DNA from: a virus | IMG/VR virus record: IMGVR_UViG_3300032954_000001 | Span: 1-64,000 of that record | Length of the DNA stretch: 64,000 bases | Direction: 5' to 3' (one strand) | Shown: positions 4,201-58,992 of the stretch, one piece after another | Position numbering within the stretch: position 1 is the stretch's first letter | Layout: each line of letters opens with the position of its first letter | Notes under the pieces: model-generated | Database searches by the model: none | Seen by the model: the letters and a program-made list of their open reading frames with translations, nothing else | Told to the model about the DNA's origin: nothing | Translations under genes and position numbers: made by a program

Positions 4201-4737
4201 GTGAATTACTACATCGTCGAAGCGTCCCACCTATTCCGGGCTGGGGACAAATTCCAAACACAATTTTTCGTTGTGGACGTTGTTGGCTTTCTGAACCGAG
4301 AGTATTTCGATTCCAGAGAGTCTAAAACAATTGTTCTCCACGGCTCCGTAAAAGCGGAGCAGGCGGACCGTTACGCCGCCGCGTTAGAGCGCCATGATGT
4401 GCGGGTCATCCGCATGAAACCGATTGCCAGTATGACGGGCAACGGTAAGTGGTATTTCAAACCGACTTGGTACTGCCACAGGATGATGGGTACCGATATT
4501 CCGAAAGGAAATCGGGTTGTACTTGTGGGTTTTCATAACCCGCGCTACAAAACCTTCATCGAAAAGTACGTGAAGGATTTTGAAATTTCAATGGCTGCGT
4601 TCAAAACCCCGTCGAAAAAGCAGGGCTGGATGTCCATTCCGGAAGATTTCAAGCCTCTTCTCAAGCACGCCATCGATCTCGACGAATGCGCTGCCAAAAT
4701 CAAGGCGGAATTCCGCCGCAATCGCAGTAGTAAATAG
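4201..4737 (+). CDS. Unknown protein, 178 aa (possible NYN/PIN-like fold)
   Basis: GTG start chosen for the GAGGGG Shine-Dalgarno five bases upstream. An alternating strand/helix pattern with VVLVGFHNPRYKTFIEKYVKDF vaguely recalls NYN-type nuclease cores, but the acidic active-site residues are not obvious, so I treat this as weak. C terminus basic. Confidence 0.6.
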   Translation: MNYYIVEASHLFRAGDKFQTQFFVVDVVGFLNREYFDSRESKTIVLHGSVKAEQADRYAAALERHDVRVIRMKPIASMTGNGKWYFKPTWYCHRMMGTDIPKGNRVVLVGFHNPRYKTFIEKYVKDFEISMAAFKTPSKKQGWMSIPEDFKPLLKHAIDLDECAAKIKAEFRRNRSSK

Positions 4738-5248: not shown

Positions 5249-5769
5249 TAACCTGCGTCACAGCGCCGAGCCGGAGCGGAACTAGCCTGACCATGCAGAT
5301 GTTGCTGGCGGCTGGCTATCCTTTGGCTTGGAACGGACTTCCGAATCGCAATAAATGGAATGAGCGCGGTTTCTACGAAATGGATTGGAATAAGGGCACA
5401 CTCGCCGAGTGCGAGGGTAAAGCGGTGAAAGTCATGCCGTTCGATCTCTACCGCCTGACGCCGGATCACGAGTATCGGTTCATCACGATTCTGCGGAATA
5501 TCGCCTGTATTGAGGCGTCGATGGAGCACACGGTGCAGTGGCGCGGTAAGGAAATGTTCGACGCTCATCATGCCTCGGACTGGCAGGCACGCACGCTGGA
5601 CTTTATCAAGGATTATTCGCGTGTCATCGTCGAATTCAGTGACCTTTTCAACGGCAAAGCGCAGCAGCAGATTGGAGAATTCTTGGGGTTCGATGAATTA
5701 CAGATTGCGAAAATGAACGACTGCGTGGACCCAAGTATGTGGCACTTCAAGCCGGGGGAAAACCAATGA
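5245..5769 (+). CDS. Sulfotransferase-like P-loop protein
   Basis: 174 aa starting at TTG 5245, overlapping the MazG stop. Near the N terminus APSRSGTSLTMQMLLAAGYP resembles the PAPS-binding P-loop of sulfotransferase-like proteins, and ITILRNIACIEASMEH resembles the second (3'-phosphate) motif. Small single domain as in other phage members. Substrate unknown. Moderate confidence from motif resemblance only. Confidence 0.6.
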   Translation: MITCVTAPSRSGTSLTMQMLLAAGYPLAWNGLPNRNKWNERGFYEMDWNKGTLAECEGKAVKVMPFDLYRLTPDHEYRFITILRNIACIEASMEHTVQWRGKEMFDAHHASDWQARTLDFIKDYSRVIVEFSDLFNGKAQQQIGEFLGFDELQIAKMNDCVDPSMWHFKPGENQ

Positions 5770-5945
5770 GATGCCTGCGCTGCGTTCGCGAGAATTTGAA
5801 GAATCAGCAGATCACCCTCAGCGTTGTTCAGATGGCGGTTGATGGGGCCAGAACGGGCGTGGTTGTCCGTAACGGAGAGTCCATCTGCACCGAGCATTTG
5901 TACAACATCGTCATCGAAGAGGCGATTCCGGTACAGTTCAAATAA
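5766..5945 (+). CDS. Small protein, 59 aa
   Basis: ATG overlaps the preceding stop. Begins MRCLRCVREN with one CxxC; the middle resembles small beta-rich phage proteins. Unknown. Confidence 0.6.
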   Translation: MRCLRCVRENLKNQQITLSVVQMAVDGARTGVVVRNGESICTEHLYNIVIEEAIPVQFK

Positions 5946-6019: not shown

Positions 6020-6661
6020 GTGAACACGGAATACATCGAAACTACCGAGGAACAACTACTCGGACTTCGCGACAGCCTTGACTTGCTGGGGCAGCTTAAT
6101 CGCGACAAGATCAGAGAATTGGACATCTATCTGTATGGCACGACCACGGATCGTGGTCTAGTCGATGCCGCCAAGGAAGCCATTGCCGACAGTTCCTATG
6201 AAGTCGAAATCACCGAAGAAGACGTAAACCTGACTGAGATTGCGGTCGCCATTCCGATCTCCGGTGACACCATCTACGCCCTGACTGGGTCTGGTTTTCG
6301 TGTAGATCGCCACATCAGTTTTGCTTACCAAAGCGAGGGTGAAGGACCGAGAGACTTGAACTACGGTGCCTCATCCTATCGTCCGAATATTAGTTTTTCA
6401 GTCCTCAAAAATCCTGCTCTCGCCGATTCAGACTTGAATCTCGGCGAGTACCTGAAGCAGTACGGAACCGGGGGAGCCGCGCAAATCAAACCAAAGGTCA
6501 GACGGACAGAAGAAGCCACGCAACCGGGCATACCCGCCCCTGCGCAGGCTCCGGAGACTCCGGCACAGGCTCCCCCAGCAACTCCCGCCCCGGCACCGCA
6601 GGGGCAGCCGAAGCGAACCTCGGTGAACATCCCCTACTTGGTAGAGAAGTTCCTTGGTTAA
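6020..6661 (+). CDS. Unknown protein with Pro/Ala-rich tail, 213 aa
   Basis: GTG start after AGAGGG. The first 150 residues look globular (beta-rich ISGDTIYALTGSGFRVDRHI); about residues 160-200 form a Pro/Ala/Gln linker, and the end is a short conserved-looking SVNIPYLVEKFLG, which could be a docking peptide. Function unknown. Confidence 0.7.
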   Translation: MNTEYIETTEEQLLGLRDSLDLLGQLNRDKIRELDIYLYGTTTDRGLVDAAKEAIADSSYEVEITEEDVNLTEIAVAIPISGDTIYALTGSGFRVDRHISFAYQSEGEGPRDLNYGASSYRPNISFSVLKNPALADSDLNLGEYLKQYGTGGAAQIKPKVRRTEEATQPGIPAPAQAPETPAQAPPATPAPAPQGQPKRTSVNIPYLVEKFLG

Positions 6662-9736: not shown

Positions 9737-10053
9737 AGAACGGAACACTTCGTCAGGTGAAAGTCAACGACCGTACCTACAAGTACCGCGTCGTCAGCGA
9801 ACTGTCTACCGAAGTCACTATGCCGGATGGCAAGACCATCACCGCAACCAATTGGGATGTCAAAGGGGTGCGGGAAGCGTTCTATCGCGACGAGTACCTC
9901 AACCCGGAGATTCATTACAATCTGCCGAAGGGGGATGAAGTCGTGGAGTTCGGCATTCGTCCGGCAGACGTGACGCGGTTCATCACCGATGGCATCGAAC
10001 GCAACCCGGATTTGTTCGATCCTATCGAAATCGCCGAGGGAGCCAATGCTTAA
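9733..10053 (+). CDS. Unknown protein, 106 aa
   Basis: ATGA overlap with the Thg1-like gene and overlap with the next gene. Beta-rich start (VKVNDRTYKYRVVSELSTEVTMPDGKTI), acidic end. No family recognised. Confidence 0.65.
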   Translation: MKNGTLRQVKVNDRTYKYRVVSELSTEVTMPDGKTITATNWDVKGVREAFYRDEYLNPEIHYNLPKGDEVVEFGIRPADVTRFITDGIERNPDLFDPIEIAEGANA

Positions 10054-11191
10054 TTTTCTCTTGCTCATGATCGTGCCAGTGCTGATCGCTCTGGCTACCC
10101 TGCTGGTCTTCAAGGGCAAGATTCTGCTTTGGGAATTCGGAGCGCAGGTCGGCGTTGTCGCCCTTGTGATCGGTATCGCTCTTGCTGCGGCGTATGAGGG
10201 ACGGACCGAGGATGTCGAGGTTTGGAATGGGCAGGTCACCAGCCGCCAACGGCATGAAGTTTCTTGTTCCCACTCCTATTCCTGTAACTGCACCCCGGAG
10301 TACGACAGCAAGGGCAACTATACGGGAGAACACTGCGACACGTGCTATGAACACAACTACGACGTGGATTGGACAGTGTACGCTTCGACCGGAGAGTCCG
10401 TTGATATCGAACGCGAAGATCGACAGGGTTTGATCGAACCGAAGCGGTGGGACGCCGCGTACCCCGGTGAACCGTGGGCATCGGAACATTCGTTCACGAA
10501 TTACATCAAGGCAAACCCTGATTCCGTATTACTCGGTACCAAAGGCGACATGCAGAAGTGGGGCAAGCTGGTGCCGAAATACCCGGCAGATATCTACAAC
10601 TATTACTACAACAACCCGGTCATCAACATGGGCGTCCCCGGCGTCAAGGTTGAGGAGTGGAACTGGCTGGTTCGTGAGATCAACAAGACTCTCGGACCGA
10701 AGAAGCAGGTTCACATCATCGTGATTCTGGTGCCGACTAACGACCGCAGTTACCTGTATGCCCTCAAAGATGCGTGGCTCGGCGGCAAGAAGAACGATGT
10801 GGACGTGGTCATCGGTTCACAGGACGGACAGACAATCGACTTCGCCGACGTGATGTCATGGAGCACGAACAAAGCTTTGACGGTGGAACTCCGTGACGAC
10901 ATCCAAGGCATCGGCAACCTGCTTCGCAAGGACGATATCGTTGCAGCCATCAATACGCGAGTCAGTGCTGACTTCGTCCGGATGCACATGAAAGACATGA
11001 AATGGATCATGCGTTCGTACCAGCCCTCCTCGTCCACAATGATGTGGATTTTCATCGTTGGTACGATCCTGTCCGTTGGAATTTCAGTGTGGGCAGTCTA
11101 CGCGGATTTAGGCGAAGATGATGTTGACCACGATTGGGGTCACCGTCGCTACGCCGCACGTTTCAAATTTGGGAACAGCTACTTCAATTAA
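10046..11191 (+). CDS. Membrane protein with TPM-like domain, 381 aa
   Basis: Two N-terminal helices (residues 2-22 and 31-50), a Cys-rich loop (CSHSYSCNCTPEYDS..HCDTC), a central domain with HIIVILVPTNDRSYLYALKDA and VVIGSQDGQTIDFADVMSW resembling TPM/YgcG-type domains, and a C-terminal helix (MMWIFIVGTILSVGISVWAV). A LemA gene follows 21 bases on, and LemA-TPM neighbours are common in bacteria, which supports the weak domain reading. Probably acts at the envelope. Confidence 0.6.
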   Translation: MLNFLLLMIVPVLIALATLLVFKGKILLWEFGAQVGVVALVIGIALAAAYEGRTEDVEVWNGQVTSRQRHEVSCSHSYSCNCTPEYDSKGNYTGEHCDTCYEHNYDVDWTVYASTGESVDIEREDRQGLIEPKRWDAAYPGEPWASEHSFTNYIKANPDSVLLGTKGDMQKWGKLVPKYPADIYNYYYNNPVINMGVPGVKVEEWNWLVREINKTLGPKKQVHIIVILVPTNDRSYLYALKDAWLGGKKNDVDVVIGSQDGQTIDFADVMSWSTNKALTVELRDDIQGIGNLLRKDDIVAAINTRVSADFVRMHMKDMKWIMRSYQPSSSTMMWIFIVGTILSVGISVWAVYADLGEDDVDHDWGHRRYAARFKFGNSYFN

Positions 11192-12061: not shown

Positions 12062-12712
12062 ATGAGCACTGACGTTGGATTCAAGAAAACCGCAGAAGCA
12101 GAACACCACTACAGCACAGGGATGCAACGCGACAATCGCGTCGGTAAGGGTGCCCTCCATTGGCTCCCGTGGGACGCCGTCCGGTTGGTATCCACCATCT
12201 ACGAGCACGGCAACAAAGGTCGCAGCAACGTAAACCTCCGTCCTAACAAGGACGGCAAGGACCGCAATTGGGAGAACGGCGGCGACATCGATGACTTCTA
12301 CCAGTCAGCCCTGAACCACATTTCAGCCTTTCTCGCAGGTGATCGAAGCGAAGCGCATATCCCGCAGGCGATATGGAACCTGCTCAACGGGCTCCAAATG
12401 TCGATTTGGGTGTATCTGGGATACCGTTCTCAAGAGCACAACACTTTGACGGATGCACGCCACGGCTGGAAGCCCGGTGACCCATACGTCTCTGTGTTGG
12501 CACCCATTGAGATCGAACGCCTCAAGTTTTTCGGCGTAATCCCAAAGGACTATGAACCCGCTCCGAGTGTCAATGAACCTGAATCTCAGCCGGAGGAACC
12601 AACCCCGGCACCAGAGCCGACACCCGCACTCAAGGAATTGATGCAGGAACCTGCTCCGACCGTGGTCAAGAAGAACATCAAGAAGTTCGAGGAAGGTGAG
12701 GACGAACTGTAA
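12062..12712 (+). CDS. dATP/dGTP diphosphohydrolase-like protein
   Basis: N-terminal domain (about residues 15-120) matches the phage family annotated as dATP/dGTP diphosphohydrolase (DUF5664, MazG-like): GMQRDNRVGKGALHWLPW, EHGNKGRSN, RNWENGG, ALNHISAFLAGD, HIPQAIWNLL. It may adjust purine dNTP pools. The C-terminal third is a Pro/Glu-rich linker. Start 12062 lies just after a TATTAG box (12049-12054) with no Shine-Dalgarno, so it may be leaderless. Family assignment from memory of conserved blocks. Confidence 0.65.
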   Translation: MSTDVGFKKTAEAEHHYSTGMQRDNRVGKGALHWLPWDAVRLVSTIYEHGNKGRSNVNLRPNKDGKDRNWENGGDIDDFYQSALNHISAFLAGDRSEAHIPQAIWNLLNGLQMSIWVYLGYRSQEHNTLTDARHGWKPGDPYVSVLAPIEIERLKFFGVIPKDYEPAPSVNEPESQPEEPTPAPEPTPALKELMQEPAPTVVKKNIKKFEEGEDEL

Positions 12713-15998: not shown

Positions 15999-16201
15999 GC
16001 CATCTCGCCGATCCCGAAACACAGCCACTCTGGAACAAGGTCATCGACATGTGCGGCGGTGACTATGACCAAGCCGTGACGTTCATTTGCCGCCTGCGGG
16101 AGTTGGTATGTGTTGTCGATCCGTCACGTGGCGAAGATGTCACCAATGCGATTCGCCGTGCGCAGTACGAAGAGGCTCTTGAGGAGGCTCTGTTTGACTA
16201 A
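15995..16201 (+). CDS. Unknown protein, 68 aa
   Basis: Acidic and helical. Its end contains GAGGAGG, which is the Shine-Dalgarno for the ligase TTG start 7 bases later, so translation is coupled. Confidence 0.6.
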   Translation: MSHLADPETQPLWNKVIDMCGGDYDQAVTFICRLRELVCVVDPSRGEDVTNAIRRAQYEEALEEALFD

Positions 16202-18308
16202 CTCAATCGACAACCCGGCAGTCATTGCGCGTATTCGGCAGCTTAATACCGAACTGGAACTGGCACGCGAGGCTTATTACAAGTCGGCTACGCCGATCAT
16301 GTCGGACGCTGAATACGACAAGAAGGAAAAGAACCTTCGCGATATCGTGAAATCAAGCCCGTGGCTGGCCGAATTTGCTCCGGTATTGACTACGGTCGGT
16401 AACGATCTGATGCCTGCCGCAGGGCGTATTCGTCATAGCCGCCCCATGCTCTCCATCGAGAACAAATACGAGAAGTCCGAGATCGATGATTTCCAGAAGA
16501 ACGTATTGCATGGCGAAGCAATGCTTCTGGAGCCGAAACGTGACGGCATTTCCTGCGAACTTCGCTACCGCGAGGGCAAGCTGCAACTGGCATTGACACG
16601 TGGTTCCGGCTCCGAGGGCGAGGATATCACGGCTCAGATTCGTGTGCTGAGAGACATCCCGAAAGAGATCAAGTATAGTGACGCATTCCCGCATAGCCTT
16701 GATGTGCGCGGTGAACTGGTCATGCGCAAGTCCGAACTGGAGCGCCTGAACAAGATCGCCCGTGAGAAGGGCGGCAAGGAATATCAGTCCACTCGCAATT
16801 TGGTTGCTGGCACCGTCAAGTTGAAGGACATGAACGAAGTTGCCAAGCGTGAGATTCTGTTTATCCCGTGGGAGATGACCGGGGATGGGCAACTGTCGGA
16901 TAGTGGCTATGTCCGTATGACCATGTTGGCAAGTGCAGGCTTCGCCAAGTACGAGGGCTATCTGGTCGATCCAGCCGACAGCACCGACGTTATTAAGGTG
17001 CTCGATCACATCCTGAAAGAGAACGAGCAATCACAGATCGTGGCTGATGGCGTAGTCGCCAAAGCTGACAGCATGAAGCTGCGCAAGGAACTCGGCGGCG
17101 GCACCAAGTTCGCTAACTATCAAGTTTGTTACAAACCGCAGACCGACTTCGCTACGACCTACTTGCGCAAGATCGTGTGGCAGACCGGGCGCTCCGGCAA
17201 ACTGACCCCGGTCGGCGAGTGCGACCCGGTTCCTTTGGCGGGGGCGGTGGTGACCCGTGCAACCCTCAATAATCTCAGTTTTATTGAGGAAATGGGACTC
17301 AAATTGAACGCCAAAGTGAAGATGCTTCGCTCTGGCGGCGTAATCCCGGAGATCGACGGAGTCATCGAAGAGGGCGACACCGCAATTAAAGCACCCGGAC
17401 ATTGTCCGGAGTGCGGCAGCATTATCGTTGCCGAGACAGATGAGCGCAGCGGCATCCTGACGCACTGGTGTCAGAACGTCGAGTGCCCCGGTCGCGTCTC
17501 CGATCTGTTCTATTTCATCGGCGGACGAGGCGTGCTGGAGATTGACGGACTCGGCCCGGAAATGGCTTTGAAGATCGTCAAGGATGGCTACGCCCGAAAT
17601 ATCGGCGAACTTTTCGAATTCCAGACTGAGGCAATGGAAGGCATCAAGACACACGGCGAAGAGAACTTCGACCGCCGTATGGCGAAACGCGGCTTCTCTG
17701 TCGTGTTCCGTAAGATGGTGCAGTCGATGGAACTCGCCAAAAAGAAAGATTGGGATCGCTGGATTATGGCTCTCGGTATCCCCATGATCGGTGGGTCGCT
17801 TTCCAAGGTTCTGGCGACGAAGTTGGAATTGATGCCGGAGTCGATGAAGTACCTGACCGCCCGATTGCTCGATGTTGAGGGCATGGAGATCGAAGGCATC
17901 GGTTTCCACAAAAAGCAGATGATTCTGGATTGGGCGAAGGATAGTCAGAATCGCAAGATTTGCGAGGCTCTGTATAACGCCGGGGTTGCTCCCAAGGCTC
18001 CTGAGAAAGTACAGGTGGTTGCCGGGGAGCCGCTTAAGAACGTGGTGTTCGTCATCACTGGCGAGTTCAGTGAGGATCGTGAGAAAATCACGGCAAAACT
18101 GGTAAAACTTGGTGCTACATCAAAGTCTGGTGTATCATCGAAGGTGAACCTGTTGATCGTCGGGGAAGCCCCCGGCAAGACCAAGACAACCAAGGCGAAA
18201 GAACTTGGGATTCAACAGGTCGGCAAGGACTGGCTGGTCAACGTGCTTCGCGAGAACGGCATGGAATTGTCCGGCTCCGGGCTCGATTTTGAAATGGACG
18301 AGGCGTAA
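16194..18308 (+). CDS. ligA: NAD-dependent DNA ligase
   Basis: Seals nicks with NAD as AMP donor. Order seen: N-terminal Ia-like region (AREAYYKSATPIMSDAEYD near 25-43), adenylation motif EPKRDG with Lys115, OB fold, C4 zinc finger (CPECG..CQNVECPG), helix-hairpin-helix (GVLEIDGLGPEMALKI) and a C-terminal BRCT domain (VFVITGEFS... GKDWLVNVL). All four LigA regions are present; 704 aa, slightly longer than bacterial LigA. TTG 16194 was chosen for the GAGGAGG spaced 7 bases upstream. It could serve replication and, with the Ku homologue at 57982, end joining. Confidence 0.92.
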   Translation: MTNSIDNPAVIARIRQLNTELELAREAYYKSATPIMSDAEYDKKEKNLRDIVKSSPWLAEFAPVLTTVGNDLMPAAGRIRHSRPMLSIENKYEKSEIDDFQKNVLHGEAMLLEPKRDGISCELRYREGKLQLALTRGSGSEGEDITAQIRVLRDIPKEIKYSDAFPHSLDVRGELVMRKSELERLNKIAREKGGKEYQSTRNLVAGTVKLKDMNEVAKREILFIPWEMTGDGQLSDSGYVRMTMLASAGFAKYEGYLVDPADSTDVIKVLDHILKENEQSQIVADGVVAKADSMKLRKELGGGTKFANYQVCYKPQTDFATTYLRKIVWQTGRSGKLTPVGECDPVPLAGAVVTRATLNNLSFIEEMGLKLNAKVKMLRSGGVIPEIDGVIEEGDTAIKAPGHCPECGSIIVAETDERSGILTHWCQNVECPGRVSDLFYFIGGRGVLEIDGLGPEMALKIVKDGYARNIGELFEFQTEAMEGIKTHGEENFDRRMAKRGFSVVFRKMVQSMELAKKKDWDRWIMALGIPMIGGSLSKVLATKLELMPESMKYLTARLLDVEGMEIEGIGFHKKQMILDWAKDSQNRKICEALYNAGVAPKAPEKVQVVAGEPLKNVVFVITGEFSEDREKITAKLVKLGATSKSGVSSKVNLLIVGEAPGKTKTTKAKELGIQQVGKDWLVNVLRENGMELSGSGLDFEMDEA

Positions 18309-33207: not shown

Positions 33208-33668
33208 CGACATCAGGAACCCCGCAAGATCAAATGATGTTCCCGGAGAAGGCGACCTATGAGGTAATGCCTTCGCGAGAGCCGCAGAAAGAACCTCGCA
33301 AGCTAGAATTTCTATTCGCTGACGTTATGGGCGTCTGGTATTCCGCCCCGGAGACGTGGGTGCGCATGGATGGCTCCGAGAAAAAGCATGTAGAGCCGGG
33401 TCAGATCGGACTGCACATCAAGTGGGGAGCCAAGAACTACGGCTTCGGCGAGTACATCGTGCGGTTCATGACGGACGGTACGATCAAGGTGCATGACGAG
33501 TATGGCGGGCCGAATTTCTCGCAACAGCTTTTCGCATTCATCGGTGAACAGATTGCCAAAGGCGAACACGACCGCGAGAGAGACGCGAAGGAAACAAAAT
33601 CGCTGGCAGAACTAGCGAAGGAAGTCGAAGAATCGAATGAAGGTTCTGGAACAACTCAAGGCGAATAA
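33147..33668 (+). CDS. Unknown protein, 173 aa
   Basis: ATG 33147 with GGGTGG upstream, inside the end of the preceding gene. Beta-rich centre (GQIGLHIKWGAKNYGFGEYIVRF), acidic C-terminal helix. Unknown. Confidence 0.6.
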   Translation: MSELEQDWKDRCDKIGVDPLTTSGTPQDQMMFPEKATYEVMPSREPQKEPRKLEFLFADVMGVWYSAPETWVRMDGSEKKHVEPGQIGLHIKWGAKNYGFGEYIVRFMTDGTIKVHDEYGGPNFSQQLFAFIGEQIAKGEHDRERDAKETKSLAELAKEVEESNEGSGTTQGE

Positions 33669-34575
33669 GTTCCCCTACGCGGGGAACCTGATCCACCTGT
33701 TCAAGGCTGGCTCCGAACTCCACGGTGCCAAGGTCGAGGGCAAGCAGGATGAGGATTGGATGGGTGTGTACGTCGAGAGCCCCAACATGGTGATTGGGCT
33801 GGACGAATACCCCCACTACGTTTGGTCATCGGCTGGCGACCACGACAAGAACAAGCCGGGGGACATGGACATCACTCTTTACAGCCTGCGCAAGTGGGTC
33901 AAGCTGGCGTGCACGGGGAATCCTACGATCCTCGGCTGCCTGTTCGCTCCCAATGTGCTGGATAACGCGCATTGGAGCAAGGTTGTGGCGAAGAAGGATT
34001 TGTTCCTCGCCAAGTCCGTGGCTGAGCCGTTCCATGGTTTCGCCGATCAGCAGCTTAAGCGGGTGCTCGGCGAGAAGGGCAAGGGCAAGCATGGTCAGCG
34101 TCCCGAACTGGAGCAGAAGTTTGGGTACGACACTAAGGCTGCCATGCACGTGCTGCGGCTCCTCGGTGAGGGCGTGGAATTGTTGATGGCGGGTAAGATC
34201 ACCTATCCTCGTCCCAACACCAAGATTCTGATTGACTGTCGGCAGGGCAAGTTTGATTTGCCGTCTGTCAAGGGAATGGCGGATATTCTCTTTGCCGATC
34301 TCGAACGGGCTCGACGCGAATCCGGACTGCCGGAGGAGTGCGACCGTGCGGGAGCTTCTCAGTTCTTGACGGATTTCTACCTTGACTACTGGCAGCAACA
34401 GGAATCGCAGATGAACCGCGTTCTAGCGAAGGGAGTAAATCTTGCTTCCCGCTGGATCGCGGGACACCTGCGCGTGTGCCCTCTGACTGACGGTCATCCG
34501 GCGTGGGAAGAGTGGAAGGAAGAAGATGTCGTGAAGATCGCCATGATCGATTTGGCGATGCGGAGCAGTGAATGA
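33637..34575 (+). CDS. Predicted nucleotidyltransferase (RlaP / pol-beta type)
   Basis: GSELHGAKVEGKQDEDWMGVYVE corresponds to the GS-x-n-D-x-D motif of pol-beta-like nucleotidyltransferases, and KPGDMDITLYSLRKWVKLACTGNPTILGCLFAP matches the RlaP-type family (PF10127), where this phrase is highly conserved. 312 aa. Target unknown; such proteins have been found near RNA-processing genes, and this phage is tRNA-rich. Confidence 0.75.
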   Translation: MKVLEQLKANKFPYAGNLIHLFKAGSELHGAKVEGKQDEDWMGVYVESPNMVIGLDEYPHYVWSSAGDHDKNKPGDMDITLYSLRKWVKLACTGNPTILGCLFAPNVLDNAHWSKVVAKKDLFLAKSVAEPFHGFADQQLKRVLGEKGKGKHGQRPELEQKFGYDTKAAMHVLRLLGEGVELLMAGKITYPRPNTKILIDCRQGKFDLPSVKGMADILFADLERARRESGLPEECDRAGASQFLTDFYLDYWQQQESQMNRVLAKGVNLASRWIAGHLRVCPLTDGHPAWEEWKEEDVVKIAMIDLAMRSSE

Positions 34576-36402: not shown

Positions 36403-36481
36403 AGGGGCGTAAGACTATCTGGCGTCGTCGGCTGGTCTCCAAAACCATGCAGTGGGGGTTCAAATCCCCCCGCCCCTGCCA
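36403..36481 (+). tRNA. tRNA-Trp(CCA)
   Basis: Acceptor AGGGGCG/CGCCCCT, anticodon loop CTCCAAA, T arm GGGGG/CCCCC, discriminator G, CCA encoded. Confidence 0.88.
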
Positions 36482-36973: not shown

Positions 36974-37120
36974 GTGATCGCTGGCAGTCCGATTGATTTT
37001 GACTGCCCTCTTTGCGGCAAGCCGAAAGGCGTACCCTGCAAAGTCAGGATCGTGGAAGAGCAGATCGTAGAGATCGACTTCCATCTTGACCGCAAAAAGT
37101 TGACAAGATTGTCCGCATAG
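36974..37120 (+). CDS. Small zinc protein between tRNAs, 48 aa
   Basis: GTG (or TTG 36968) start in the gap between two tRNA-Arg genes. DFDCPLCGKPKGVPCKV is a metal site. The stop TAG is bases 8-10 of the next tRNA. Composition is protein-like, but no Shine-Dalgarno is seen. Confidence 0.45.
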   Translation: MIAGSPIDFDCPLCGKPKGVPCKVRIVEEQIVEIDFHLDRKKLTRLSA

Positions 37121-37187
37121 CTCAACTGGATAGAGCGCGTGCCTACGAAGCATGAGGTTGGGGGTTCGAGTCCCTCTGTGGACACCA
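37111..37187 (+). tRNA. tRNA-Arg(ACG), normal form
   Basis: Acceptor GTCCGCA/TGTGGAC, D arm CTCAACTGGATAGAG, loop CTACGAA, CCA encoded. Reads CGU/CGC/CGA if A34 becomes inosine. Confidence 0.92.
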
Positions 37188-37192
37188 TATCA

Positions 37193-37267
37193 GGGGTGTA
37201 TTGTCGGTTCGAATCCGGCTGGTCGTGGGTTTCACGATCATAGGCTCAAATGGTCAACCAACGCCCC
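37193..37267 (+). tRNA. Candidate circularly permuted tRNA
   Basis: Read in order: GGGGTGT, variable bases, T arm GTCGG-TTCGAAT-CCGGC, acceptor 3' strand TGGTCGT (37220-37226), 7-nt linker GGGTTTC, acceptor 5' strand ACGATCA (37234-37240, fully pairing with TGGTCGT), TA, D-arm-like GGCTCAAATGGTCAACC, then ACGCCCC (37261-37267), which pairs with GGGGTGT as an anticodon stem. All parts of a cloverleaf are there but the 3' half precedes the 5' half. The ends lie in the anticodon loop; the anticodon cannot be fixed. No CCA. Seen directly: pairings and T loop; function is inference. Confidence 0.5.
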
Positions 37268-37278
37268 GTCGTTTTTAT

Positions 37279-37365
37279 GCCTCCGTGTCGGCAACTGGAT
37301 GCCACCCTCGCTACGAACGAGGAGCCCGAAAGGGAATGCAGGTTCGAGTCCTGTCGGGGGTTCCA
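37279..37365 (+). tRNA. tRNA-Arg(ACG) with extra variable arm
   Basis: Acceptor GCCTCCG/CGGGGGT, D stem GGC/GCC, anticodon CCTCG/CGAGG with loop CTACGAA, a 15-nt variable arm containing CCC-GAAA-GGG, T arm GCAGG/CCTGT, discriminator T, CCA encoded. The normal form is at 37111. Confidence 0.82.
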
Positions 37366-38597: not shown

Positions 38598-38669
38598 CGT
38601 ACCGTAGCTTAGTTGGCAGAGCGTCCGCCTTGGAAGCGGAAGACGCAGGTTCGAATCCTGTCGGCTTTG
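38598..38669 (+). tRNA. tRNA-Pro(TGG) with mismatched acceptor, no CCA
   Basis: D arm GCTTAGTTGGCAGAGC, anticodon TCCGC/GCGGA with loop CTTGGAA, T arm GCAGG/CCTGT are intact. Acceptor strands CGTACCG and CGGCTTT pair only at positions 5-7 (2:71 is a wobble), and CCA is not encoded, unlike its neighbours. Either a decayed gene or a substrate for 5'-end editing. Confidence 0.6.
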
Positions 38670-43095: not shown

Positions 43096-43170
43096 GGGAG
43101 TATCGTCTAATGTCAAGACCCCCGCCTTTTAAGCGGGCCGATCTCGGTTCGAATCCGGGTGCTCCCACCA
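43096..43170 (+). tRNA. tRNA-Lys(TTT), copy 1
   Basis: Acceptor GGGAGTA/TGCTCCC, anticodon CCCGC/GCGGG with loop CTTTTAA, T arm CTCGG/CCGGG, CCA encoded. Confidence 0.92.
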
Positions 43171-49585: not shown

Positions 49586-50629
49586 ATGGAACGTAGATCA
49601 AAAGTTTTCGGAGCGGTCTTCGGGCAAGCAATTGGCGATGCTCTCGGACATCCTCGCGAATTCGCTAACTCCCGTATGGTCAAAGGGGTATGGTCGCCCG
49701 TAGTTATCGAAGACCTTCCAGAAAAGAACAAATTCACCGACGATACGCAGATGTTCTGCTGCATCGGTGAGGCTCTCATATCCGACCCCCCACACGTTGA
49801 TGAGAACAAGTTCATGGAGGCGGTCAGCCGGAATTTCGTGGTGTGGAAAGACAAGCCATTAGGCGGTGACCACCGGGCACCGGGCGGCTCCTGTATGGCG
49901 GGAGTTCGGAAATTGAGTGCCGGAGTGCCGTGGCTTGAATCCGGAGGGCTACAAGCGAAGGGAAACGGCACTGCCATGCGTTCTGGCGTGGTGGGTGCCT
50001 ATTACTGGAGCACCCCGGACTATGCGTTCAGGATCGGGGCACTGACTGCCGTCAACACGCATTACAACTTGGAACCCATCATCGGAGCCGGGATAGTCAG
50101 CTACCTAGTTGCGGCGTCGATTAAGGGAATCGAATTTTCGACTGCGGTCGGCTGCGCCTTCAAGCTGGCAAGCGAATTCGATGACTTGACGGTCGTGGCT
50201 CATTATCCCCAGCAAGTGCGCCTCGGACCGGGGGAGGCGAATCAAAATCCATGGTACGCCATTGGGCATATCGCAGCCAGTTTTGCCTTCGGAAATGGGA
50301 AATCGGTCAATATCAAAGCCTTTAATAAGTGGAATGGGGATGACTTCGCGGTCATTCCAGCGGTTGCCGCAGCCGTGTTTTACAACGCACGGTACAGTAC
50401 CTACCGAGACATCGTCCTGAACTGCGTGAACAACACCGGGGACTGCGACACCACCACTGCCATCGCTGGCACCATTGCCGGAGCCCGATTTGGGACGCCG
50501 GGAATAGATCAAGAGTGGATCATGCGGGTGGAACTCAGCGAGTATTTAGCGACACTGGCGGATCAGATTTATCAGGGCAGTATTACGTTAGTAGGACAGG
50601 AGAAAGAAACGCATGGATCGCATTCGTAG
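49586..50629 (+). CDS. ADP-ribosylglycohydrolase (ARH/DraG family)
   Basis: Removes ADP-ribose from modified targets using Mg. Family motifs: GQAIGDALG near residue 13, FTDDTQMF with T51-D52-D53, KGNGTAMRSGVVG near 125, and the C-terminal NTGDCDTTTAIAGTIAGARFG supplying the second metal-binding Asp pair. 347 aa, full length. In phages it may reverse host ADP-ribosylation or process ADP-ribose; the substrate is not inferable. Confidence 0.88.
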   Translation: MERRSKVFGAVFGQAIGDALGHPREFANSRMVKGVWSPVVIEDLPEKNKFTDDTQMFCCIGEALISDPPHVDENKFMEAVSRNFVVWKDKPLGGDHRAPGGSCMAGVRKLSAGVPWLESGGLQAKGNGTAMRSGVVGAYYWSTPDYAFRIGALTAVNTHYNLEPIIGAGIVSYLVAASIKGIEFSTAVGCAFKLASEFDDLTVVAHYPQQVRLGPGEANQNPWYAIGHIAASFAFGNGKSVNIKAFNKWNGDDFAVIPAVAAAVFYNARYSTYRDIVLNCVNNTGDCDTTTAIAGTIAGARFGTPGIDQEWIMRVELSEYLATLADQIYQGSITLVGQEKETHGSHS

Positions 50630-57981: not shown

Positions 57982-58992
57982 ATGGCGAAATCCAAGAAAG
58001 CTGCTCCAGCCGTTGCCGTTGCAGAAGCACCGATCACCAAGGAATCGGCTATGAGCAAGCTGGCAGCAATGCTGAGCCAGCCCGGTATCACCCCGGTCGT
58101 CGCTCCTACTCCTGAAAAGAAAACCACCAAGAGTTCGGTATTCACTGGCGAACTGGTCATCCTCGAAGGCCGCGCCACTCTCGACATCAAGTGCTATAAC
58201 GCTGCCGAAGCCGACAGCATCGAGCGCAACAACCTGCACGCCCATACCACCAAGCAGAAGAACGAGAAGGGCGAGGACGTTGAAGTCACCACCTACAGCA
58301 AGGTGAAGAACGGCACGCAGTTCTGCTCCGGCTGCAACAAGACGATCTCGAAAGACGAGATCGTGAAGGGCGTCGAAGTCGGCAAGGACAAATACGTCAC
58401 CTTGACCGATCAGGAAATTCAGGAAGTCGCACCGCTCAAGGCGAATCAGATGTTCGTTACCGCCTACGTCAAGCCGGAAGATGTCAACCTGACCTACATC
58501 GAAGATTCCGAGTACGTCTGCATCGACCCGGACAGCAAGAACCCTCGCAAGGAAGTTTTCGACACGTTCGTCGATGCGATGTTCAAGCACGGTCGTTACG
58601 GCAAGGGTGTGCGTGTGAAAGGCAATCGTGAGCAGTATTTCATCATTCGCCCGGTCATGAACAAGCTGGCGGATGGCTCCATCGCCTACGGCATGATGCT
58701 GCACCACCTGTTCGCGGAATACGAAGTCCGCGAGTGCAACAAGTTCCAGAAGGCTGAGCCGAACTCGGAATTGTCGGCAGTCATCGGTCAGTACATGGAA
58801 GAGACGACCGAGGGTTTCGTCCCGGCAAAGTACGACAGCTTCCTCGGCAACACGCGCAATCTGGTGTTGGCGAAGTCGAACGGTGCCGTTGCGTCGATCA
58901 AGCAGTCGCACATGGCGCAGGCTCCTGCGACCGATCTGATCGGTGCTTTGAAAGACGCTCTCAAGACGAAGAGCGCCAAGGCTGGCAAATAA
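57982..58992 (+). CDS. ku: Ku-like DNA end-binding protein
   Basis: Ku dimers encircle DNA ends and recruit ligase for end joining. The order matches bacterial Ku: a FTGELVI... strand region with LHAHT near 85, C115-x2-C118 (FCSGCNK), KDEIVKGVEVGKDKYVTLTDQEI (bacterial form EDIVKGYEY..YVVLTDEE), MFVTAYVKPEDVNLTYI, YVCIDPDSKN..EVFDTFVDAMFKHGRYGKGVRV and the IIRPVMNKLADGSI..MMLHHLFAEYEVRE end. An N-terminal extension of about 50 residues is unusual. 336 aa. Ku is known from a few mycobacteriophages, where it helps genome circularisation. No LigD here; LigA at 16194 is the only ligase in the window. Confidence 0.8.
   Translation: MAKSKKAAPAVAVAEAPITKESAMSKLAAMLSQPGITPVVAPTPEKKTTKSSVFTGELVILEGRATLDIKCYNAAEADSIERNNLHAHTTKQKNEKGEDVEVTTYSKVKNGTQFCSGCNKTISKDEIVKGVEVGKDKYVTLTDQEIQEVAPLKANQMFVTAYVKPEDVNLTYIEDSEYVCIDPDSKNPRKEVFDTFVDAMFKHGRYGKGVRVKGNREQYFIIRPVMNKLADGSIAYGMMLHHLFAEYEVRECNKFQKAEPNSELSAVIGQYMEETTEGFVPAKYDSFLGNTRNLVLAKSNGAVASIKQSHMAQAPATDLIGALKDALKTKSAKAGK

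Follow-up and report, generated by a model that had tools for sequence, protein, structure and literature searches.

What is a stretch of DNA that carries the parts of a tRNA in the reverse of their usual order, lodged between two tRNA genes of a phage? Within the window analysed here (64,000 nucleotides, positions 1 to 64,000 of IMG/VR virus record IMGVR_UViG_3300032954_000001, which comprises 105,266 bases), such an element occupies 37193-37267, in the 91 nt (37188-37278) that separate two tRNA-Arg genes, both co-directional with it. A sequence-only reading had described a T arm, two complementary 7-nt strands with one G-U pair and a 7-base spacer, a following TA, and outer ends that pair in the place of the anticodon stem; direct reading and the predicted fold bear out each of these parts (Table 1). 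TGGTCGT (37220-37226) pairs at 7/7 positions with ACGATCA (37234-37240), including the G-U pair, and the outer strands GGGGTGT and ACGCCCC likewise pair at 7/7 with one G-U. The GGGGTGT strand takes the place of the 3' strand of an anticodon stem and is 2 bp longer; ATT lies between it and the T arm, while a single A separates GGCTCAAATGGTCAACC from the outer 3' strand. The downstream tRNA-Arg(ACG)-like gene reaches only 29.8 bits to the tRNA family.

Table 1 Parts of the permuted element and neighbouring genes in the window.
Feature	Position	Strand	Basis or remark
RlaP-type RNA-repair nucleotidyltransferase	33637..34575	+	2.6 kb upstream of the element
Upstream tRNA-Arg(ACG), CCA encoded	37111..37187	+	ends 5 nt before the element
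Outer stem, 5' strand GGGGTGT	37193..37199	+	sequence, fold
T arm GTCGG-TTCGAAT-CCGGC	37203..37219	+	sequence; 21-nt local match to T-arm region of tRNA-Lys 43096-43170
Acceptor-like 3' strand TGGTCGT plus G closing the 8th pair	37220..37227	+	sequence, fold
Hairpin loop GGTTT closing the acceptor-like stem, without CCA	37228..37232	+	sequence, fold, element table
Acceptor-like 5' strand CACGATCA	37233..37240	+	sequence, fold
TA and D-like segment GGCTCAAATGGTCAACC (D-like part 37243-37259)	37241..37259	+	sequence
Outer stem, 3' strand ACGCCCC	37261..37267	+	sequence, fold
Downstream tRNA-Arg(ACG)-like gene, long variable arm	37279..37365	+	starts 11 nt after the element

A four-way junction is predicted for the 91 nt that separate the flanking tRNAs (-30.8 kcal/mol, z -2.77), with 1/200 shuffles as good. 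The predicted fold extends the acceptor hairpin to 8 bp, leaving a loop of 5 nt, and gives the D part another pairing (GGCU/GGUC). When the T arm was held fixed and its flanks were shuffled, a loose descriptor was matched by 324/200,000 sequences and a strict one, demanding a 7-bp acceptor pairing, a spacer of 3-12, T followed by A or G, GG in the D loop and a 7-bp outer stem, by 21/200,000. Given this low shuffle rate and the z-score of the fold, the layout is unlikely to have arisen by chance around a stray T arm.

Likeness to tRNA is uneven along the element. To judge by its letters, the T arm appears to be the sole part recognisable as tRNA. The D-arm-like segment claimed by the sequence-only reading is present, with GG in its loop, but is weak: GGCTCAAATGGTCAACC lacks A14 and A21 (our own numbering) and its stem is imperfect. 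Compared with the phage's own tRNAs, the 5' half of the element scores 20, against a mean of 19.9 in 100 shuffles, a maximum of 26 in another 100, and a median of 34 for real tRNA 5' halves (n=73); by sequence, this D-like half is no more tRNA-like than shuffles are. CCA is encoded by 59/61 ARAGORN tRNAs from the window and five stretches of a sister record, and is missing from the element.

Several readings could be set aside. A normal-order tRNA with the outer stem as acceptor would have the anticodon loop GGGTTTC, without U33, and T-arm consensus in the D position (by eye), and an assembly from halves of two different normal tRNAs was rejected because the element's acceptor strands pair with each other. 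A search for a normal-order partner returned a single acceptor strand, which matches at 6/7 positions and lies 98 nt upstream, in the region of the neighbouring tRNA. Permuted two-piece tmRNA shares with the element the placement of T arm and acceptor 3' strand ahead of the acceptor 5' strand; tmRNA and other Rfam families were rejected, there being no match at gathering score over the element and none to tmRNA among the matches listed at E up to 10. A covariance model of a permuted tRNA, an approach that the sequence-only reading had raised and that we built solely from 31 normal tRNAs of the phage, returned 102 matches over 25 sources and ranked the element at the top with 38.4 bits, but a junction between two adjacent normal tRNAs scored 37.5 bits there and junctions in other records up to 53.1; since tandem normal-tRNA junctions score alike, the model does not discriminate.

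The same order of parts is found in bacterial Y RNAs. In the Rfam alignment of YrlA (RF02553), the consensus runs from a T arm through a closed acceptor hairpin to a UAGCUCA...GGUAGAGC D arm and an enclosing stem. A Y RNA structure (6CU1) superposes on tRNA through circular permutation (PMC11472068), and YrlA is described as an Rsr-tethering basal stem joined to a tRNA-like domain, modified by DusA and TruB and binding PNPase (PMC8394870). Some jumbo phages carry a ROT/TROVE protein, which in cells is partnered with a tRNA-like molecule (PMC7824862), and YrlA has been reported in phages (PMC7765460). Because Y RNAs share the order and YrlA is reported from phages, a phage element with permuted tRNA parts is in itself nothing new.

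The element resembles YrlA in the order of its parts, from the T arm through a closed acceptor hairpin and UA to a D-like segment and an enclosing stem, and in having neither a CCA end nor an anticodon. The YrlA model aligns it in the same register, at 11.6 bits (E 6.7) against a gathering score of 69, which is lower than many plain tRNA junctions. Among the records searched, the model matched 26/48 at E up to 1, none above the cut-off, and matched 12/14 control genomes weakly; YrlA scores in the 20s mean little, because normal-tRNA junctions and these controls also match. The element further differs from YrlA in lacking the long basal Ro stem, in its poor D arm and in that no Ro gene was found in the phage. 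Within the 91 nt there is only the 7-bp outer stem and no large basal stem, for which there is no room because the element lies so close to its neighbouring tRNAs. Folded with 60-nt flanks, the window element gains 36 flank pairs, a count above that of most Y-RNA-like modules (9 to 36), but we discount this count since its flanks are two tRNA genes that would have to be unfolded to pair. The GGTTATC-type flank of several Ro-linked elements was not seen at the element by eye. For want of its own basal stem, a Ro-site flank, a good D arm, a detected Ro gene and a high score, the element is not classed as YrlA.

Related phages were the other place in which the sequence-only reading had proposed to look for the same order, and it does occur there. 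With a conserved phage protein (window 9989-11191) we collected 80 IMG/VR loci, the best 80 of 121 relatives, and scanned 2,704,030 bases (overlapping and repeated loci included) with a descriptor that demands a T arm and, after it, two acceptor strands able to pair at 6 or 7 positions. This revealed 661 distinct T arms, 474 of them inside ARAGORN tRNAs at relaxed score, and at least 16 candidates among the other 187. The descriptor thus applied to relatives finds further permuted layouts without a normal-order partner. Permuted modules were seen in G021 (YrlA scores of 41.0 and 36.3 bits), G008 (locus L065, 40.0), G038 (L102, 33.2), G023 (30.0) and G044 (L116, 29.3), all below 69; L116 is absent from the main scan, probably since relaxed ARAGORN calls a tRNA-Leu over it, and comes from an earlier pass. 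G003 is the nearest of the diverged relatives (60% in a marker protein); the portion of its 463 kb that was scanned held one weak candidate (L152 1694; 6/7 pairs, spacer 32), which we judged to be chance. A further candidate, L074 20235, proved to be the junction of two normal tRNAs.

Some such modules, in relatives or in named phages, lie next to a Ro gene. TROVE was detected in 6/48 records searched, 5 of them over the curated cut-off, and in G008 the Ro gene starts about 1.6 kb downstream of the permuted module. Relatives of the G008 Ro protein occur in 342/50,697 named-phage records. Of six named-phage Ro neighbourhoods, scanned more loosely than the relatives (spacer to 60, no anticodon-stem filter), four contain at least one permuted module (BearBQ, Nappy, Braelyn and Trina), and those of Atu_ph07 and Sixama contain none by this looser descriptor. 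The modules of Gordonia phage BearBQ, Mycobacterium phage Nappy, Streptomyces phage Braelyn, Rhodococcus phage Trina and the IMG/VR relatives are permuted and have a 6-7 bp acceptor hairpin, as the element does, and most likewise have tRNA genes nearby. Unlike the element, which has no such stem of its own and no such flank, they have predicted basal stems and, in several cases, a TCGGTTATC-like flank (by eye).

For comparison, we tabulated 15 elements from the descriptor hits (6 or 7 acceptor pairs). Omitted were L067, L119, L152 and L174 (chance by eye), L158, L163, L191 and L223 5794, as well as L156, which the relatives' scan did not return. A GCTC/GAGC D stem is present in 8/14 of the other tabulated elements and not in the window element, which alone among the 15 shows a mismatch within the first three D-stem pairs (by eye). 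Compensatory changes occur across this wider class of permuted modules, whose members were chosen partly for pairing.

Together, these data favour a small tRNA look-alike, or the relic of one, over a reassembled tRNA gene, because known bacterial Y RNAs that imitate tRNA have the same layout. More specifically, we give roughly even credence to a stand-alone tRNA-mimicking module that has the architecture of the Y RNA tRNA-like domain and dispenses with the Ro-binding basal stem. The permuted layout, the predicted four-way junction, the low chance rate, the YrlA register and the modules in relatives argue for it, as do the RNA-repair genes of the phage, namely RlaP and the RNA ligases of the sister record G001 (one Rnl1-type, PF09511, 62.3 bits, and two others, PF09414); the low YrlA score, the lack of room for a basal stem, the missing flank, the weak D half and the failure to find Ro count against it. 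A mimic also fits better than a decoding tRNA, since the 8-bp hairpin is closed and has no CCA and the outer stem is extended through 32-33/37-38.

Such a mimic would be transcribed with the tRNA array as a unit, and processing of the flanking tRNAs would free an RNA of about 91 nt (37188-37278). Its T arm and acceptor hairpin would stack as the upper half of a closed tRNA with no 3' end. Having neither a free CCA end nor an anticodon loop, it would be unable to decode. Its targets would instead be elbow-recognising proteins, for instance T-loop modification enzymes, PNPase or a host defence that cuts tRNA; by occupying these it could serve as a decoy or tether. A tRNA-cutting defence is named as one possible target of YrlA by the authors of PMC7790460. 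Should the element be a Y-RNA-like mimic without a stem, giant phages rich in tRNA genes would hide Ro-independent tRNA decoys in their tRNA arrays, alongside tRNA-repair enzymes in the same genomes, and this would offer a testable lead on how phages shield tRNAs from host anticodon nucleases. For a permuted tRNA layout in a phage, the comparison to make first is with Y RNAs.

The main rival to such a mimic is a non-functional relic, which we consider possible though clearly less probable: the T arm would derive from a lost tRNA or a partial duplication, the pairings would be inherited or accidental, and no useful RNA would be made. It keeps this place because recognisable tRNA sequence is confined to the T arm, the 5' half bearing no such resemblance, and because no diverged homologue was found in the searches made, which returned an identical copy only. 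That copy lies in G001 (455,708 bases), where the element is unchanged and identity reaches 99.9% across 20.9 kb. An exact-pattern scan of viral contigs found the element only in this sister record, and a search with the major head protein returned the same record only. Against named phages, megablast gave no match to the tRNA array, and the element itself gave only short T-arm matches at E 0.08 or worse among the best 40 of 85 records. The large tRNA arrays of the phage (64 matches to the tRNA family RF00005 in G001) also speak for a relic. On the other hand, two 7-bp helices and a good fold persist, a combination that so few shuffles reach; a recent tandem duplication should have kept CCA between the acceptor strands, where the element reads GGG; and the outer stem exceeds the length of an anticodon stem.

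A circularly permuted tRNA gene, as the sequence-only reading had it, is improbable. Its order and pairings are real and unlikely by chance, but the step from there to a tRNA gene is unsupported, since Y RNAs have the same order and since U33, A14, A21, CCA, a bulge-type (BHB) junction and a splicing endonuclease are missing or were not found. According to a 2014 review (PMC3978253), known permuted tRNA genes come from six algae and one archaeon; their junctions are of the BHB type and their intervening sequences 1-74 bp long. As in those genes, the 3' half comes first, a short intervening sequence joins the acceptor strands and the break falls at the anticodon (PMC3978253); the complementary acceptor strands stand in the correct order, the 7-nt intervening loop is within the 1-74 range, TA occupies positions 8-9 and GG is present in the D loop. 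The element differs from them in having no BHB at its ends and no 7-nt anticodon loop with U33 (both by eye). In our numbering, C-G pairs at 32/38 and 33/37 preclude such a loop, and C stands at both 14 and 21 (direct reading). On the circularised segment, ARAGORN with relaxed thresholds finds a junction-spanning tRNA for 7/8 choices of ends, but its anticodon shifts with the ends chosen, and at the default threshold none is called for any of the 8. The tRNA splicing endonuclease (PF01974) was found in 0/4 records, as compared with matches in 4/14 control genomes, and RtcB in 0/3. In maturation without BHB splicing, processing of the flanking tRNAs (RNase P, 3' processing) would set the ends of the freed RNA, the Rnl1-type anticodon-loop repair ligase of the phage would join them within the anticodon loop, and RNase P together with 3' processing would then cleave the acceptor hairpin in its loop, yielding a decoding tRNA. 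We retain this route at low probability because an Rnl1-type ligase is present, alongside the two other RNA ligases of G001. Among the listed matches of a literature search on permuted tRNA and phage, neither term occurs in any title or abstract.

Very improbable is a genuine Ro-binding Y RNA of the YrlA family, its Ro partner coming from the host or from phage sequence that the records lack: the layout of the module is the same, and Ro-linked modules exist in relatives and named phages, but the element has neither its own basal Ro stem nor a Ro-site flank (by eye), scores far below the gathering score, and has no TROVE match (PF05731) in G000 or in the 455,708-base sister record, although these records may be incomplete and absence is thus unproven. 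The G008 Ro protein, used as query in a search that had no positive control, likewise found no Ro gene in G000 or G001.

Apart from the question of the element's nature, several features of the phage and its relatives deserve mention. In the tRNA array, the anticodons for His, Arg-ACG, Asn and Lys occur twice, and two tRNA-like genes (36403-36478 and 38602-38664) are found by the Rfam tRNA model and missed by ARAGORN at default settings. G001 contains an ARAGORN tRNA with a CTA (amber) anticodon, labelled Pyl (L035 6052, minus strand). The window also encodes an NAD-dependent DNA ligase with a BRCT domain (16110-18308), an ADP-ribosylglycohydrolase (49586-50629) and a Ku-like protein (57982-58992).

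Two permuted elements of G022 (IMGVR_UViG_3300028840_002431; L188 6543-6602 and L189 12086-12140, both minus strand) have a complete anticodon arm after the D arm, with loops CTAGAAA and CTACGGA, which places their break in the variable loop. They have predicted basal stems and the common flanks TTACATGCATAC and AAACAGGT, and L188 6543-6602 encodes ACCA after the acceptor strand; no Ro was found in G022. These elements may represent genuine permuted tRNA genes, or else RNAs of the Y-RNA-like kind. In the same record, normal-order tRNAs near 6648 and 6358 of L188 and near 12192, 11901 and 11547 of L189 (all minus strand) contain an extra stretch between anticodon arm and T arm, so that 107-128 nt run from the acceptor 5' strand to the T arm, with YTYACAWGC just before the T arm in 4/5; no Rfam intron was listed in these extended tRNAs at E up to 0.05.

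In G034 (L158 1544, minus strand) and G036 (L163 1511, plus strand), a permuted module apparently sits inside another tRNA, within its anticodon loop. One of these two modules closes its acceptor hairpin with C-G and the other with A-T, which is a compensatory change. In 4/15 modules (L168 1545, L190 7089, L223 4670 and L188 6586), the closing loop carries NCCA after the acceptor 3' strand, as compared with a chance expectation of about 0.2/15 (1 in 64). None of the modules of the four named phages is annotated as a Y RNA in the feature tables consulted. Y-RNA-like modules in Ro-like neighbourhoods lie at L219 5794, L220 5728, L221 3187 and, in Trina (L223), at 4670, 5575 and 5794; two of the Trina modules overlap 5613-5821, a feature that bears the annotation pseudo tRNA-OTHER.
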